A stretch of 33,829 nt of DNA from Clostridiales bacterium. GTDB lineage: Bacteria > Bacillota > Clostridia > Caldicoprobacterales > DTU083. Position 1 is the first letter of the stretch; each line of letters opens with the position of its first letter. The position numbers and the translations under genes are program-made. Shown piece after piece: positions 12,976 to 32,809 of this stretch. Below the pieces are notes generated by a model. It had not been told where the DNA came from, made no database searches, and saw only the letters and a program-made list of their open reading frames with translations. Location of the stretch: contig DURK01000082.1 of assembly GCA_012837325.1 (NCBI GenBank), positions 1 through 33,829 of the forward strand. The letters are read 5' to 3'.

Positions 12976-12997
12976 TGTGCAATTTTCCATTCCATTT

Positions 12998-13026
12998 GTA
13001 TAAACTTCCGTATACCTGTCAATACT
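12998..13026 (+). promoter_or_regulatory. Sigma-F-type promoter for spoIIR
   Basis: GTATA (12998-13002), a 15-base spacer and GTCAATACT (13018-13026) match the forespore sigma-F consensus (GYATA, GGnnAnAnT) with one mismatch at the second -10 position. spoIIR is a known sigma-F target in B. subtilis. Confidence 0.65.
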
Positions 13027-13059
13027 CGTTAATAGAAAAGTGATACGGGGGGCTTACGA

Positions 13060-13089
13060 ATGAAGCGGTATGAAATGAAGCGGTATGAA
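13060..13089 (+). repeat. 15-base tandem duplication at the spoIIR start
   Basis: The first 15 bases of spoIIR (start codon and codons for KRYE) are repeated exactly at 13075-13089, giving two in-frame ATG codons and an N terminus of MKRYEMKRYE. The upstream ATG has the better-placed GGGGGG ribosome site. Confidence 0.9.
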
Positions 13090-13689
13090 TGGATTTTTGC
13101 ATTTCTGGCACTATTGATGATTCTCCTCACGGCTGCCAATGAAATAGACCAGTCAACCTATGGCGATGATTTAATCCGTCTGCACGTGATTGCAAACAGT
13201 GATTCACCGGAAGATCAGGCATTAAAGCTGCAGGTTCGAGACCGGTTGCTGTTAACCTTTGGCGAGACTTTCCGGGAAGTCCGGTCCATGGAGGAAGCCC
13301 GCGGCATCATCCAAGCCAATCTGGCAGCATTGGAGCAGACTGCCTGTGTGGAAATTGAAAACCAGGGTTTTTCTTATCCGGTAGAGGCAAAGCTGGGCAT
13401 CTACCCCTTTCCAACCAGAGTGTATGGTGACCTGGTTTATCCGGCCGGCAATTACGAAGCCCTTCGGGTTGTGATCGGAGAAGGGAAGGGTGCCAATTGG
13501 TGGTGTGTCATGTTTCCCCCCCTCTGCTTTGTAGATGTTTCCTCCGGTGCTGCCAAACAGCCGCAGCAGGAAAACCCGAAGGAAGCAGATCTGTCCAGCC
13601 CGTCCATTGGAGAGGAAAATACCATCGTCTATACCTTTAAAGCAGCCCAATTATGGAAAAGCTTCCGGGAATGGATTGGCAGCTTCTAA
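13060..13689 (+). CDS. spoIIR: Stage II sporulation protein R
   Basis: A 209-residue protein with one N-terminal hydrophobic segment (about residues 11-27) and the family core 'DLIRLHVIANSDSPEDQALK', 'GNYEALRVVIGEGKGANWW' and 'CVMFPPLCFVD'. SpoIIR is made in the forespore under sigma-F, exported to the intermembrane space, and triggers SpoIIGA to process pro-sigma-E in the mother cell. A sigma-F-like promoter stands just upstream, which fits that role. The linker after the core is Gln/Glu/Ser-rich. A terminator follows, so the gene is monocistronic. Confidence 0.95.
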   Translation: MKRYEMKRYEWIFAFLALLMILLTAANEIDQSTYGDDLIRLHVIANSDSPEDQALKLQVRDRLLLTFGETFREVRSMEEARGIIQANLAALEQTACVEIENQGFSYPVEAKLGIYPFPTRVYGDLVYPAGNYEALRVVIGEGKGANWWCVMFPPLCFVDVSSGAAKQPQQENPKEADLSSPSIGEENTIVYTFKAAQLWKSFREWIGSF

Positions 13690-14618: not shown

Positions 14619-15977
14619 ATGGAGCGTTTAACCAAGTGGGTTTTACCCGCAGTACTGGCTCTGGCTCTTGCTTTTACCGGGATGTGGGGCTATCAGCAGT
14701 ACAAAATGAATCAACAATACAGCAGGCATATGGATAATTTATATCAAAAATCATTTTATGAGCTGGTCGGCAGTGTGGGAAGTGTGGAAAACGGACTGGC
14801 CAAACTCATGGCCAGCGGTGATCGAAGCCAGCATGCCATGCTGCTCTCTCAAATCAGTCGTCAGGCCGATGCTGCACAGATGGACCTGGGTCAGCTGCCC
14901 ATATCCCATATTGCTTTGGATAAAACAGCCAAGTTCCTGAATCAGCTGTCCGATTATACCTATTTTTTGAACAAAGAGGTATCCAGGGGAAAGACCATAC
15001 ATGTAAAGGAAATGGAAAACCTGAAACAGCTTCATGACAATGCAGCCAAGATCAATTCGGAGCTGGTCAGGCTGAGTACCGAAACATTGAAAAGCAGGAC
15101 GGGCTGGGGAGAGCTGATGCGCGCTGCCAAATCAAGCTTTTATGAGGCATCCGATGATATCTATACCAAACAGTTTGTGGATATACAGAAAACAGGCATT
15201 GACTATCCCTCCCTCATCTACGACGGACCCTTTTCCGAGGCGTTGAACCTGCAGCAGGGAGGCGAGCTGAAGGGGGCTGCTGTGACAGAGCAGCAGGCAA
15301 GGGATGCTGCCTTGAAATGCATTGGCAGTGAACGGGTCACAAGAATCGAAAAATCCTCAGATGGCAGCAATGGAATTTTGGATACCTGGGGTTTTCAGGT
15401 GTGGCTGAAAGACCAGCCCGAGCAGCCTGTATTTATTTCTATCAGCAAAAAGGGCGGAAAGGTTGTTCATGTAATCGGCCAGCACACTGCAGAAAAGGAA
15501 GCTCTGTCCATAGATGAAGCCATGGAAAAAGCCGGTCAATTTCTGGAGGAGAACGGGTATCCGGATATGGTGCCCACCTATCAGCAAAATTACGAAGGAA
15601 TCTCCACCATTAACTTTGCTTATGCTCAAAATGACGTAATATTTTATCCGGATTTAATCAAGGTAAAAATTGCATTGGACGATGGTCATATTTATGGACT
15701 GGAGGCTGTAAACTACCTTTTGGCTCATAAAAAACGAGATTTGGAGGAACCGGAGCTTACCGTCGATCAGGCCAGGAAGCTGGTCAACCCCAATTTGCAT
15801 ATTCATTCTTCCCGGCTGGCAGTGATTCCGACAGAGGGAAAACGGGAACGCTTATGCTATGAGTTCAAAGCAAAGCTGGGAGAAAAGCGCTTTATTGTGT
15901 ATATTGACGCCAATACCGGAGAAGAAGCCGACATTCTTCAGATTATCGATACGGAAAACGGTTCCTTGACAATGTAA
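14619..15977 (+). CDS. ypeB: Germination protein YpeB
   Basis: A 452-residue protein with an N-terminal membrane anchor (about 7-25) and the helical region and C-terminal PepSY-like repeats of YpeB; conserved pieces are 'YQKSFYELVGSVGSVENGL' and 'WGFQVWLKD'. YpeB and SleB depend on each other for stability in the dormant spore; YpeB holds SleB and inhibits it until germination. ATG 14619 has GGGAGGA upstream. The frame is open further upstream inside sleB but without a ribosome site. Confidence 0.92.
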   Translation: MERLTKWVLPAVLALALAFTGMWGYQQYKMNQQYSRHMDNLYQKSFYELVGSVGSVENGLAKLMASGDRSQHAMLLSQISRQADAAQMDLGQLPISHIALDKTAKFLNQLSDYTYFLNKEVSRGKTIHVKEMENLKQLHDNAAKINSELVRLSTETLKSRTGWGELMRAAKSSFYEASDDIYTKQFVDIQKTGIDYPSLIYDGPFSEALNLQQGGELKGAAVTEQQARDAALKCIGSERVTRIEKSSDGSNGILDTWGFQVWLKDQPEQPVFISISKKGGKVVHVIGQHTAEKEALSIDEAMEKAGQFLEENGYPDMVPTYQQNYEGISTINFAYAQNDVIFYPDLIKVKIALDDGHIYGLEAVNYLLAHKKRDLEEPELTVDQARKLVNPNLHIHSSRLAVIPTEGKRERLCYEFKAKLGEKRFIVYIDANTGEEADILQIIDTENGSLTM

Positions 15978-30856: not shown

Positions 30857-30885
30857 TTGACAAACTAAAAAAAAAGGTATATAAA
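30857..30885 (+). promoter_or_regulatory. Sigma-A promoter of the c-di-GMP riboswitch transcript
   Basis: TTGACA (30857-30862), 17-base spacer, TATAAA (30880-30885). The transcript would start near 30892, giving about 50 bases before the aptamer and a leader of about 390 bases in all. The 118 bases between the murA terminator and this promoter hold nothing I can assign. Confidence 0.8.
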
Positions 30886-30942
30886 AAATTATAGATTGGA
30901 TACTTCAAAATGTGTTTATATAGTATAACAACAAAATAAAGT

Positions 30943-31024
30943 CCTAACACGGGCAAACTTATCGAAAGATAAGGATGCAAAGTTGTGAGTCTAAAGCATT
31001 TCGCTATGACTGTCAGGCTGCTAT
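30943..31024 (+). ncRNA. Class I cyclic di-GMP riboswitch (GEMM-I)
   Basis: The conserved blocks occur in order: CACGGGCAAAC (30948-30958), the hairpin CTTATC-GAAA-GATAAG with its GNRA tetraloop, GGATGCAAAG, a TCTAAAG...CTATGAC second helix acting as tetraloop receptor, and the 3' block CAGGCTGC (31014-31021). This is the GEMM-I consensus. The riboswitch senses c-di-GMP. Its 3' block is shared with the 5' arm of a terminator, so aptamer and terminator are probably mutually exclusive. Confidence 0.9.
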
Positions 31025-31054
31025 GTTAAATATATTAACATGGCAGCCTTTTTG
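31015..31054 (+). terminator. Riboswitch expression-platform terminator
   Basis: A 15-pair stem, AGGCTGCTATGTTAA (31015-31029) with TTAACATGGCAGCCT (31035-31049), one G-U, and five or six T. Its 5' arm includes the conserved aptamer bases 31015-31021. Confidence 0.9.
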
Positions 31055-31101
31055 TTTGGCTTAAAAGCAGTTCATTATTTGATACTTGAGGGGGGATGTT
31101 T

Positions 31102-31164
31102 ATGTGTGTCTTGATGAAGAAGAAGCAAGCAATAATCAACCGACAACCATTCTACCCTATTTAG
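31102..31164 (+). CDS. Possible 20-residue leader peptide
   Basis: A short frame, MCVLMKKKQAIINRQPFYPI, begins at ATG 31102 with a strong GAGGGGGG site (31088-31095) six bases upstream. It lies between the riboswitch terminator and the surface-protein gene. The remaining bases 31165-31282 hold no further feature. Whether it is translated is unknown; the strong ribosome site is the only support. Confidence 0.35.
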   Translation: MCVLMKKKQAIINRQPFYPI

Positions 31165-31282
31165 GGAGGCACAGAGCAAACGATACAGACATTTTTTAGA
31201 AAGATAGAATTCTATATGTATCTAGCAAGAACAGGGCTGCTTAGTTTCGGCATGAAAAAAATGATATTTGGGGGAAAACGAA

Positions 31283-32716
31283 ATGAAAAAGAAGATAACA
31301 ATTATCCTTACAATTACGTTATTATTAGCTCTTTTTGCTGGCATTCCGTTGGCTTCAGCAAGTGAGAAAGATGCTGAGCAGGAAAAATACAAAGAAGTGG
31401 TGGTAAATGCGGTATGGATTCCAATAGATAAAGATACTGGAGAGGTTTATGATGATTTAACACCGCTAATCACACATCCCAATGCATACGATTGGTCAGA
31501 GGTAGCAGAATTACAAGATGATCCTGCGAAAGATTATTTTAATGAATATGTAATCTCATATATGGGAACCCGTATTAAAAACAATTCTTATTACCTTAAC
31601 AATTTTATGTACACGAGCAATCTGTTTTTTAGCGATCGCTTCCATAAGGTCGTTGCACAAGGATGCTCTACTAGTGATTATAATATACAGGAAGGGAAAA
31701 AATCTCCTGTAAGAAAACTTGTATATGGAAGTTTTGAAGACGAAGATCTTGTTATGGGACTCCATGGAATGACCATGACACCTTACCAAGAAGGTGAAAT
31801 ACTTGAACTATATATTGATACGATAATAGGAAATACATCTCTTTCTGAAGCAGATTTTGTAGAGGATGAGCTTACAATTCAACGGCCTAAAGATATTCGT
31901 TCTCTTATTGATTTGTTTAAGGAGAATATAAAAGAATATACATTCCTGAGTTTAGATAAGTTAGAAGAATATATAGAAGAATATGTGACAATTGATGACC
32001 CGAAAGACATGAACTGGGACAAAGTTTATTTGTACAAATATGACCCAGATAATCGTGACAAAGGCGAATACTTAAAAAACAACAATGGTGACTATTTAAA
32101 CATTATCAACGAATTAGACATCAATGATTTAGAGTTAGGAGAATATGAGGTTGTCATTCCTGTCTATTGGCAAAGGATGGTTCCTGAAGCTCTCAGTGCA
32201 CCAGATACATTCTCTAGAAACAGATATAAATATGATGATACGATTCATTTTACCCTTATCCTCGAGGAAAGAGACGGTGCAGACGTCATTGTTAAATATG
32301 TTGATGAGGAAGGGAATCAATTAGCAGACCAAGTGATACTGAAAGGCAAAGTCAACGAATCGTGGACCACAGAGGCGAAAGAAATAGAAGGATGGATTCT
32401 AAAAACAGAACCGGAAAACAGTCAAGGTACTTTTACAGATGAAGTTCAAGAAGTTGTCTACATATATGAGGAGGAAATTGAAATTCAAGACCCAGAGGTG
32501 CCAGGCGGCCCAACGGATCCAACAGGCCCAGAAGAGCCAGAAGAGCCAGGCGAACCGGAGGATCCTTTAGATGATTCAGAATCAGAGGAACCTGAGACCT
32601 CACCCAAAACCGGAGATACCAGCCTCGTATTATTGTATGTGATACTCATGATATTAACTGGATCGGCCATATTGATTTTTACAGTCAGGAAAGCCTTACA
32701 TAAGCAATTAAGATAG
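31283..32716 (+). CDS. Sortase-anchored surface protein with MucBP domain and SPKTG signal
   Basis: A 477-residue exported protein. Signal peptide at about 1-27 (basic start, hydrophobic core, ASA end). A large N-terminal region (about 28-330) matches nothing I recognise. A MucBP-type repeat (about 334-400) begins 'DVIVKYVDEEGNQLAD'. A Pro/Glu/Gly-rich linker follows (about 402-438), then the sorting signal SPKTG (440-444), a hydrophobic helix and an RKALHKQLR basic tail. SPKTG fits the (S/P)PxTG recognised by C. difficile class B sortase. MucBP domains bind mucin or glycans, so this is a probable adhesin under the c-di-GMP riboswitch. The gene is clearly AT-richer than its neighbours, suggesting transfer. 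ATG 31283 has GGGGG upstream. Confidence 0.88.
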   Translation: MKKKITIILTITLLLALFAGIPLASASEKDAEQEKYKEVVVNAVWIPIDKDTGEVYDDLTPLITHPNAYDWSEVAELQDDPAKDYFNEYVISYMGTRIKNNSYYLNNFMYTSNLFFSDRFHKVVAQGCSTSDYNIQEGKKSPVRKLVYGSFEDEDLVMGLHGMTMTPYQEGEILELYIDTIIGNTSLSEADFVEDELTIQRPKDIRSLIDLFKENIKEYTFLSLDKLEEYIEEYVTIDDPKDMNWDKVYLYKYDPDNRDKGEYLKNNNGDYLNIINELDINDLELGEYEVVIPVYWQRMVPEALSAPDTFSRNRYKYDDTIHFTLILEERDGADVIVKYVDEEGNQLADQVILKGKVNESWTTEAKEIEGWILKTEPENSQGTFTDEVQEVVYIYEEEIEIQDPEVPGGPTDPTGPEEPEEPGEPEDPLDDSESEEPETSPKTGDTSLVLLYVILMILTGSAILIFTVRKALHKQLR

Positions 32717-32746
32717 TCATACGTCAGAGTTTATATCCAGGCATTC

Positions 32747-32780
32747 AATCCCCGAGAGATTTCTTTTTCGGGGATTTTTT
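32747..32780 (+). terminator. Intrinsic terminator after the surface-protein gene
   Basis: AATCCCCGA (32747-32755) and TCGGGGATT (32768-32776) form a perfect 9-base stem, with a T-run through 32780. Confidence 0.9.
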
Positions 32781-32809
32781 AATAAGATCCGTATAATTGT
32801 ACTCCAAGT

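Follow-up and report, generated by a model that had tools for sequence, protein, structure and literature searches.

A class I cyclic di-GMP riboswitch as predicted transcriptional ON control of a secreted, probably sortase-anchored adhesin unit in a clostridial lineage

Introduction

Between murA and spoIID of a clostridial genome lies a transcription unit that places a class I cyclic di-GMP (c-di-GMP) riboswitch ahead of the gene of a secreted surface protein, which raises the question of whether the second messenger turns this gene on or off. In C. difficile, functional class I switches are uniformly OFF switches, whereas those of class II are ON switches (PMC6200980). The C. difficile adhesins CD2831 and CD3246 are preceded by class II ON switches and the protease PPEP-1 by a class I OFF switch (PMC6366702, PMC6447587). 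The unit examined here is located in a stretch of 33,829 nucleotides (contig DURK01000082.1, positions 1 to 33,829), hereafter the window, and its source genome is a 2.2 Mb draft assembly of 203 contigs with 96.7% completeness. A preliminary description of this DNA had proposed that c-di-GMP turns expression on. As detailed below, we consider it highly probable that the riboswitch serves as a transcriptional ON control of a self-contained unit for a secreted, probably sortase-anchored adhesin.

Organization of the transcription unit

In most relatives, spoIID directly follows murA with a gap of roughly 100-700 nt. In the window, a unit consisting of a promoter, riboswitch, adhesin gene, and terminator lies between these two genes, with the following features:

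30857-30885, + strand: sigma-A-type promoter read from the sequence, TTGACA (30857-30862), 17 nt, TATAAA (30880-30885)
30942-31028, + strand: c-di-GMP-I (GEMM-I) aptamer; Rfam match 30942-31025, with the P1a 3' strand reaching 31028
30945-30951, + strand: P1a 5' strand UAACA(C)G, pairing with U(A)UGUUA at 31022-31028 in the fold of 30942-31029
31015-31056, + strand: intrinsic terminator; 5' arm 31015-31029, 3' arm 31035-31049, then a U tract
31283-32716, + strand: 477-aa secreted, sortase-anchored surface protein (putative adhesin); ATG at 31283, Shine-Dalgarno GGGGG at 31270-31274
32285-32470, + strand: MucBP domain, residues 335-396 (Pfam PF06458, E 6.5e-20)
32600-32713, + strand: SPKTG sorting motif (residues 440-444, from nt 32600), hydrophobic stretch, and basic tail
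32747-32781, + strand: intrinsic terminator closing the transcription unit; 13 pairs, stem 32747-32776

The strong promoter, well-conserved aptamer, overlapping terminator, secreted MucBP protein with an SPKTG signal, and closing terminator named in the preliminary description were thus all recovered. Over the entire window, the + strand contains three sites of the TTGACA-17-TATAAA type, the promoter at 30857 included, and such sites are rare by chance, with an expectation of 0.0125 per shuffled 617-nt intergenic region. A scan whose -10 pattern had to end in T, and which was hence blind to TATAAA, proposed an alternative promoter, TGGATA-16-TATAGT, at 30897-30924. The preliminary description did not mention the ~230 nt that separate the riboswitch terminator from the start codon of the surface protein. 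Within this stretch, there is also a short ORF, MCVLMKKKQAIINRQPFYPI (31103-31165), with a strong GAGGGGGG ribosome-binding site, which is a possible leader peptide candidate.

In G001, a member of a sister genus, a tandem pair of window-type switches lies downstream of upp-ywmB-murA, behind a promoter of the same design, TTGACA-17 nt-TATAAA, and ahead of a different, unrelated surface protein, while G002 from the same genus as G001 has only a 102-nt gap between murA and spoIID. Tandem class I switches are common (PMC9481103). Judging from this gene order, the window cassette is an apparent insertion between murA and spoIID, and its regulatory part seems to stay in place as one surface protein is swapped for another. 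This history could reflect either one insertion with replacement or two insertions.

The aptamer

The RF01051 covariance model matched positions 30942-31025 over its full length with 62.4 bits (gathering score 35, E 4.3e-10), and this was the only Rfam match in the window. By hand alignment to Vc2, and in Vc2 numbering, G20 corresponds to 30952, A47 to 30979, and C92 to 31021, while we assign the GAAA tetraloop to 30964-30967 and its receptor to CUAA 30991-30994 and UAUG 31005-31008. All of these ligand and tertiary contacts are intact; a nearby change converts C44 to U. Across five window-type switches, P1a has 27 Watson-Crick pairs at register 0 compared to 10-14 when the strands are slid. 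A partner-swap test (p 0.13) gave no independent covariation signal because the window-type switches are too alike one another. The 62 bits of the window aptamer compare with 70-83 for many family members, and it is the lowest-scoring of the three class I switches in its own genome. Due to this drift and the C44U change, its affinity may be reduced. The aptamer would presumably sense c-di-GMP in vivo.

Overlapping terminator and direction of switching

The riboswitch terminator (31015-31049) consists of 15 perfect pairs, a loop of 5, and a T tail, with a predicted energy of -22.7 kcal/mol and a z score of -5.85; no shuffled sequence was equally good. Fourteen of the 15 nucleotides in its 5' arm are located inside the aptamer, where they form the base of P2, the ligand-pairing C92, and P1a, and the 15th directly abuts it. 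Since the 5' arm is almost wholly made of aptamer nucleotides, the aptamer and the terminator are mutually exclusive. In constrained folds, the aptamer with P1a reached -21.9 kcal/mol and the full terminator -41.5 kcal/mol, but the terminator outdoes the aptamer energetically only after transcription passes ~31040, which makes the outcome a kinetic race. This race is short: transcription finishes P1a at 31028 and the terminator at 31049. We also searched the leader for an antiterminator of either terminator arm and found no partner that beat shuffled leaders (43-45% as strong). Consequently, c-di-GMP should block termination, and an ON switch operating by a kinetic race would be the simplest mechanism that this anatomy suggests. 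The ON direction put forward in the preliminary description is therefore supported by the placement of the 5' arm, the result of the antiterminator search, and the same geometry in 13 of 31 class I switches of the order (see below).

According to the proposed mechanism, RNA polymerase would start from the promoter at 30857-30885 and transcribe the aptamer. If c-di-GMP were bound before the terminator 3' arm exists, then P1a, C92, and the P2 base would be locked into the aptamer, such that nucleation of the terminator would be blocked and transcription would read through into the surface protein gene. Without ligand, the 15-bp terminator would form and transcription would end at ~31056. The product would be exported and most likely anchored via SPKTG by the class B sortase of the genome, and would act in adhesion at the cell surface when the bacterium is sessile.

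The surface protein

The 477-aa protein combines a signal peptide-like start (by eye) with a MucBP domain, a sorting signal, a membrane stretch, and a basic tail, as expected for a sortase-anchored MucBP protein. When the protein was searched alone, TIGR03063 and TIGR01167 remained below threshold, whereas in the search of the genome its SPKTG anchor scored 18.9 with TIGR01167, above the cut-off of 15.9. The first 300 residues of the mature protein (residues 30-330), which the preliminary description did not mention, gave no family or domain match, and a comparison of residues 30-329 with 391 genomes of the class returned weak matches only, with E values of 1e-3 or worse. Single-sequence structure prediction of the whole adhesin had a mean pLDDT of 38.9. 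The MucBP stretch was the only significantly matched part in a PDB sequence search and likewise the only part matched in a contig search, in a contig of Enterococcus mundtii. The putative role as an adhesin rests on the MucBP domain plus the anchoring signals, and the presence of MucBP is no proof of mucin binding.

Other switches and sortases of the source genome

A covariance search identified two further class I switches in the source genome, both on contig C189. In the first (12992-13125), the terminator overlaps the aptamer as it does in the window, and a proline-rich LPKTG protein and a sortase come next; this sortase scored best as class C, albeit below the cut-off of that model (145.2 vs. 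160). Just upstream of this switch is a perfect Fur-box-like palindrome, TGATAATCATTATCA (L006, G000:C189, 12956-12970), and similar sequences were noted by eye upstream of sibling switches in G012 and G003. This palindrome suggests that the sortase operon may be under iron plus c-di-GMP control. The other switch (14672-14775) sits right in front of the ribosome-binding (Shine-Dalgarno) site for a secreted protein that resembles transglutaminases (PF01841, 1.3e-17), and by eye its GAAAGG could pair with a CUUUUC upstream of the aptamer. On the basis of this pairing, it probably exerts translational control, and its direction is probably opposite to that of the window switch, with ligand-dependent translational repression. 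Strongly conserved siblings that overlap the Shine-Dalgarno sequence of such a transglutaminase-like protein were observed in G001, G002, G003, G004, G011, and G012.

The preliminary description had likened the locus to the C. difficile circuit, in which c-di-GMP riboswitches control (S/P)PXTG surface proteins and the protease that releases them. A class B sortase is indeed encoded on contig C37 of the source genome (TIGR03064, 248.8 bits vs. a curated cut-off of 153.75), and a second SPKTG protein is present on contig C61. The C. difficile class B sortase recognizes (S/P)PXTG (PMC5270738). Given this specificity and the second SPKTG protein, the window protein is likely anchored by the C37 sortase. 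The genome also contains six GGDEF matches. For a protease of the PPEP family (ATLF/PPEP, PF07737), no match was found in the 96.7% complete draft genome, and the 477-aa protein contains no NPP cleavage motif. Thus, the adhesin and the class B sortase bear out the proposed likeness, whereas the protease arm does not, and only the adhesin-plus-sortase half of the C. difficile logic is present. A search for class II c-di-GMP switches (RF01786), which was without responding positive controls, gave no match in the genome.

Class I switches across the order

Class I switches are present in 11 of the 13 genomes of the family. We compared 31 such switches of the order, with 30 coming from the family search and one from G024, and found an aptamer-overlapping terminator in 13, of which 11 were placed by script (start 5 or 6 nt before C92) and two (G003e and G006c) by eye. 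Eleven of the 13 precede sortase-anchored proteins, pilus genes, or a sortase; for two of these, the contig ends within the downstream protein, and the secreted N-terminus was the basis for calling it a surface protein. The remaining two (G006 and G007) stand before sortase pseudogene remnants. None of the other 18 switches precedes a sortase-linked gene; the genes behind them encode EAL-PilZ proteins, GGDEF-EAL proteins, transglutaminase-like proteins, and other products. The association of the overlap geometry with sortase-linked genes (11/13 vs. 0/18) has a Fisher p value of 9e-7, which overstates independence because the switches counted are related to one another, and some of the downstream assignments were made by inspecting the sequence. 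Sibling switches do not always stand before one and the same adhesin, as the downstream proteins differ.

In both G024 and G001, window-type switches lie ahead of genes for a GBS104-like vWA tip protein and an FctA backbone protein. The pilus cassettes comprising these genes and the switch (L089, G024:C40; L090, G001:C37) are 99.3-100% identical between these genomes, which belong to two different families, which reflects either a recent transfer or a binning error. In genus g6, the intact-looking class I switches G006c and G007a have the overlapping terminator and are followed by a frameshifted sortase remnant (L062, L067). Class I switches also precede genes of c-di-GMP turnover (L049, L051, L052, L056, and L048), which encode EAL-PilZ proteins or, in G006, a GGDEF-EAL protein; c-di-GMP riboswitches before turnover genes have been described as rare (PMC6366702). 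Three class I aptamers have an A at position 20 (G006b, L050; G011a, L052; G009a, L068), and their ligand might differ.

Discussion

The closest precedent for the window unit is the Bc2 RNA rather than C. difficile. Bc2 of Bacillus thuringiensis is a class I switch with proven ON function that antiterminates before an LPXTG collagen adhesin (PMC4933901, PMC7423583), and a review already contrasts it with the class I OFF switches of C. difficile (PMC6366702). Hence, the opposition to C. difficile emphasized in the preliminary description is borne out as a contrast, but it is not new, since a class I ON switch before a sortase-anchored adhesin was known from Bc2. The Bc2-cap/cbpA unit of the Bacillus cereus group resembles the window unit in its class I aptamer, intrinsic terminator, ON antitermination (predicted for the window), and large secreted sortase-anchored adhesin. 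The window terminator shares nucleotides 31015-31028 with the aptamer, as a switch of the Bc2 type would require, and Bc2 itself may have a similar geometry. The adhesins themselves are unrelated by domain content, with LPXTG and collagen-binding domains in one and SPKTG and MucBP in the other, and the consulted passages on Bc2 mention no sortase gene under a switch. With the CD2831/CD3246-PPEP-1 circuit of C. difficile, the window unit shares the class B sortase and (S/P)PXTG proteins raised by c-di-GMP, provided that the switch is ON as predicted. That circuit combines class II ON switches on the adhesins with a class I OFF switch on PPEP-1, while the window has a putative class I ON switch in a genome with neither a class II nor a PPEP-family match. 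Sortase-pilus operons with a vWA tip pilin and an FctA/Spy0128-type backbone pilin stand behind window-type switches in G024 and G001, but the window unit encodes a single MucBP adhesin.

Were the window switch OFF, c-di-GMP would promote termination and the adhesin would be made in the low-c-di-GMP, motile state. Such behavior would match C. difficile, where every functional class I switch is OFF (PMC6200980), and the terminator is ~20 kcal/mol more stable than the aptamer, which would make read-through hard at equilibrium. However, an OFF switch needs a terminator that coexists with the bound aptamer, and the window terminator destroys the aptamer; nor does the leader offer an antiterminator partner. 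We therefore regard an OFF switch as quite unlikely. It is also unlikely that the switch has decayed into a constitutively terminated relic, having lost useful affinity, with the adhesin expressed by leaky read-through or from another promoter within 31050-31283. The lowest score among the three switches of the genome, the C44U change, the long 230-nt stretch before the start codon, and the retention of such switches before a sortase pseudogene in G006 and G007 would all fit decay, but every recognized ligand and tertiary contact is intact, as are the ORF, the sorting signal, and both terminators, and the promoter design is common to the orthologous switch in G001.

The least credible alternative, which we judge very improbable, is that cGAMP, a different cyclic dinucleotide, is the main ligand of the sensor. 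GEMM-I variants with an A at position 20 favor cGAMP, as in Geobacter (see PMC9481103), and three switches of the family carry this A20. The window switch has G20 instead, and the six GGDEF matches in the genome also speak for c-di-GMP, although a Hypr-type cyclase could still be among them. Moreover, Bc2 responds to c-di-GMP even though the equivalent position is an A (PMC4933901).

With ON control as the preferred reading, the window unit is, as predicted from sequence, part of a set of sortase-linked units under c-di-GMP control in these clostridia. What is new here is the regulon-wide pattern. We lean, if only somewhat, toward the view that, in this order, class I switches whose terminator overlaps the aptamer in one stereotyped way make up an ON regulon dedicated to sortase substrates, pili, and a class C-like sortase, in which a promoter-plus-switch cassette is retained through changes of the surface protein. 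We found no report in the open-access literature of a sortase gene that is itself under a c-di-GMP riboswitch, which is weak evidence of novelty.

If ON as predicted, the window unit carries the proven Bc2 logic of a class I ON switch before a wall-anchored adhesin over to a distant lineage of clostridia, and suggests that the direction of switching follows the geometry of the terminator, not the class of the aptamer. Switches kept before swapped or decayed genes provide a natural test of riboswitch regulon evolution. In the wider set, c-di-GMP-sensing RNAs would govern both the anchoring enzyme and its substrates, so that surface assembly would be decided in a coordinated way at the RNA level.
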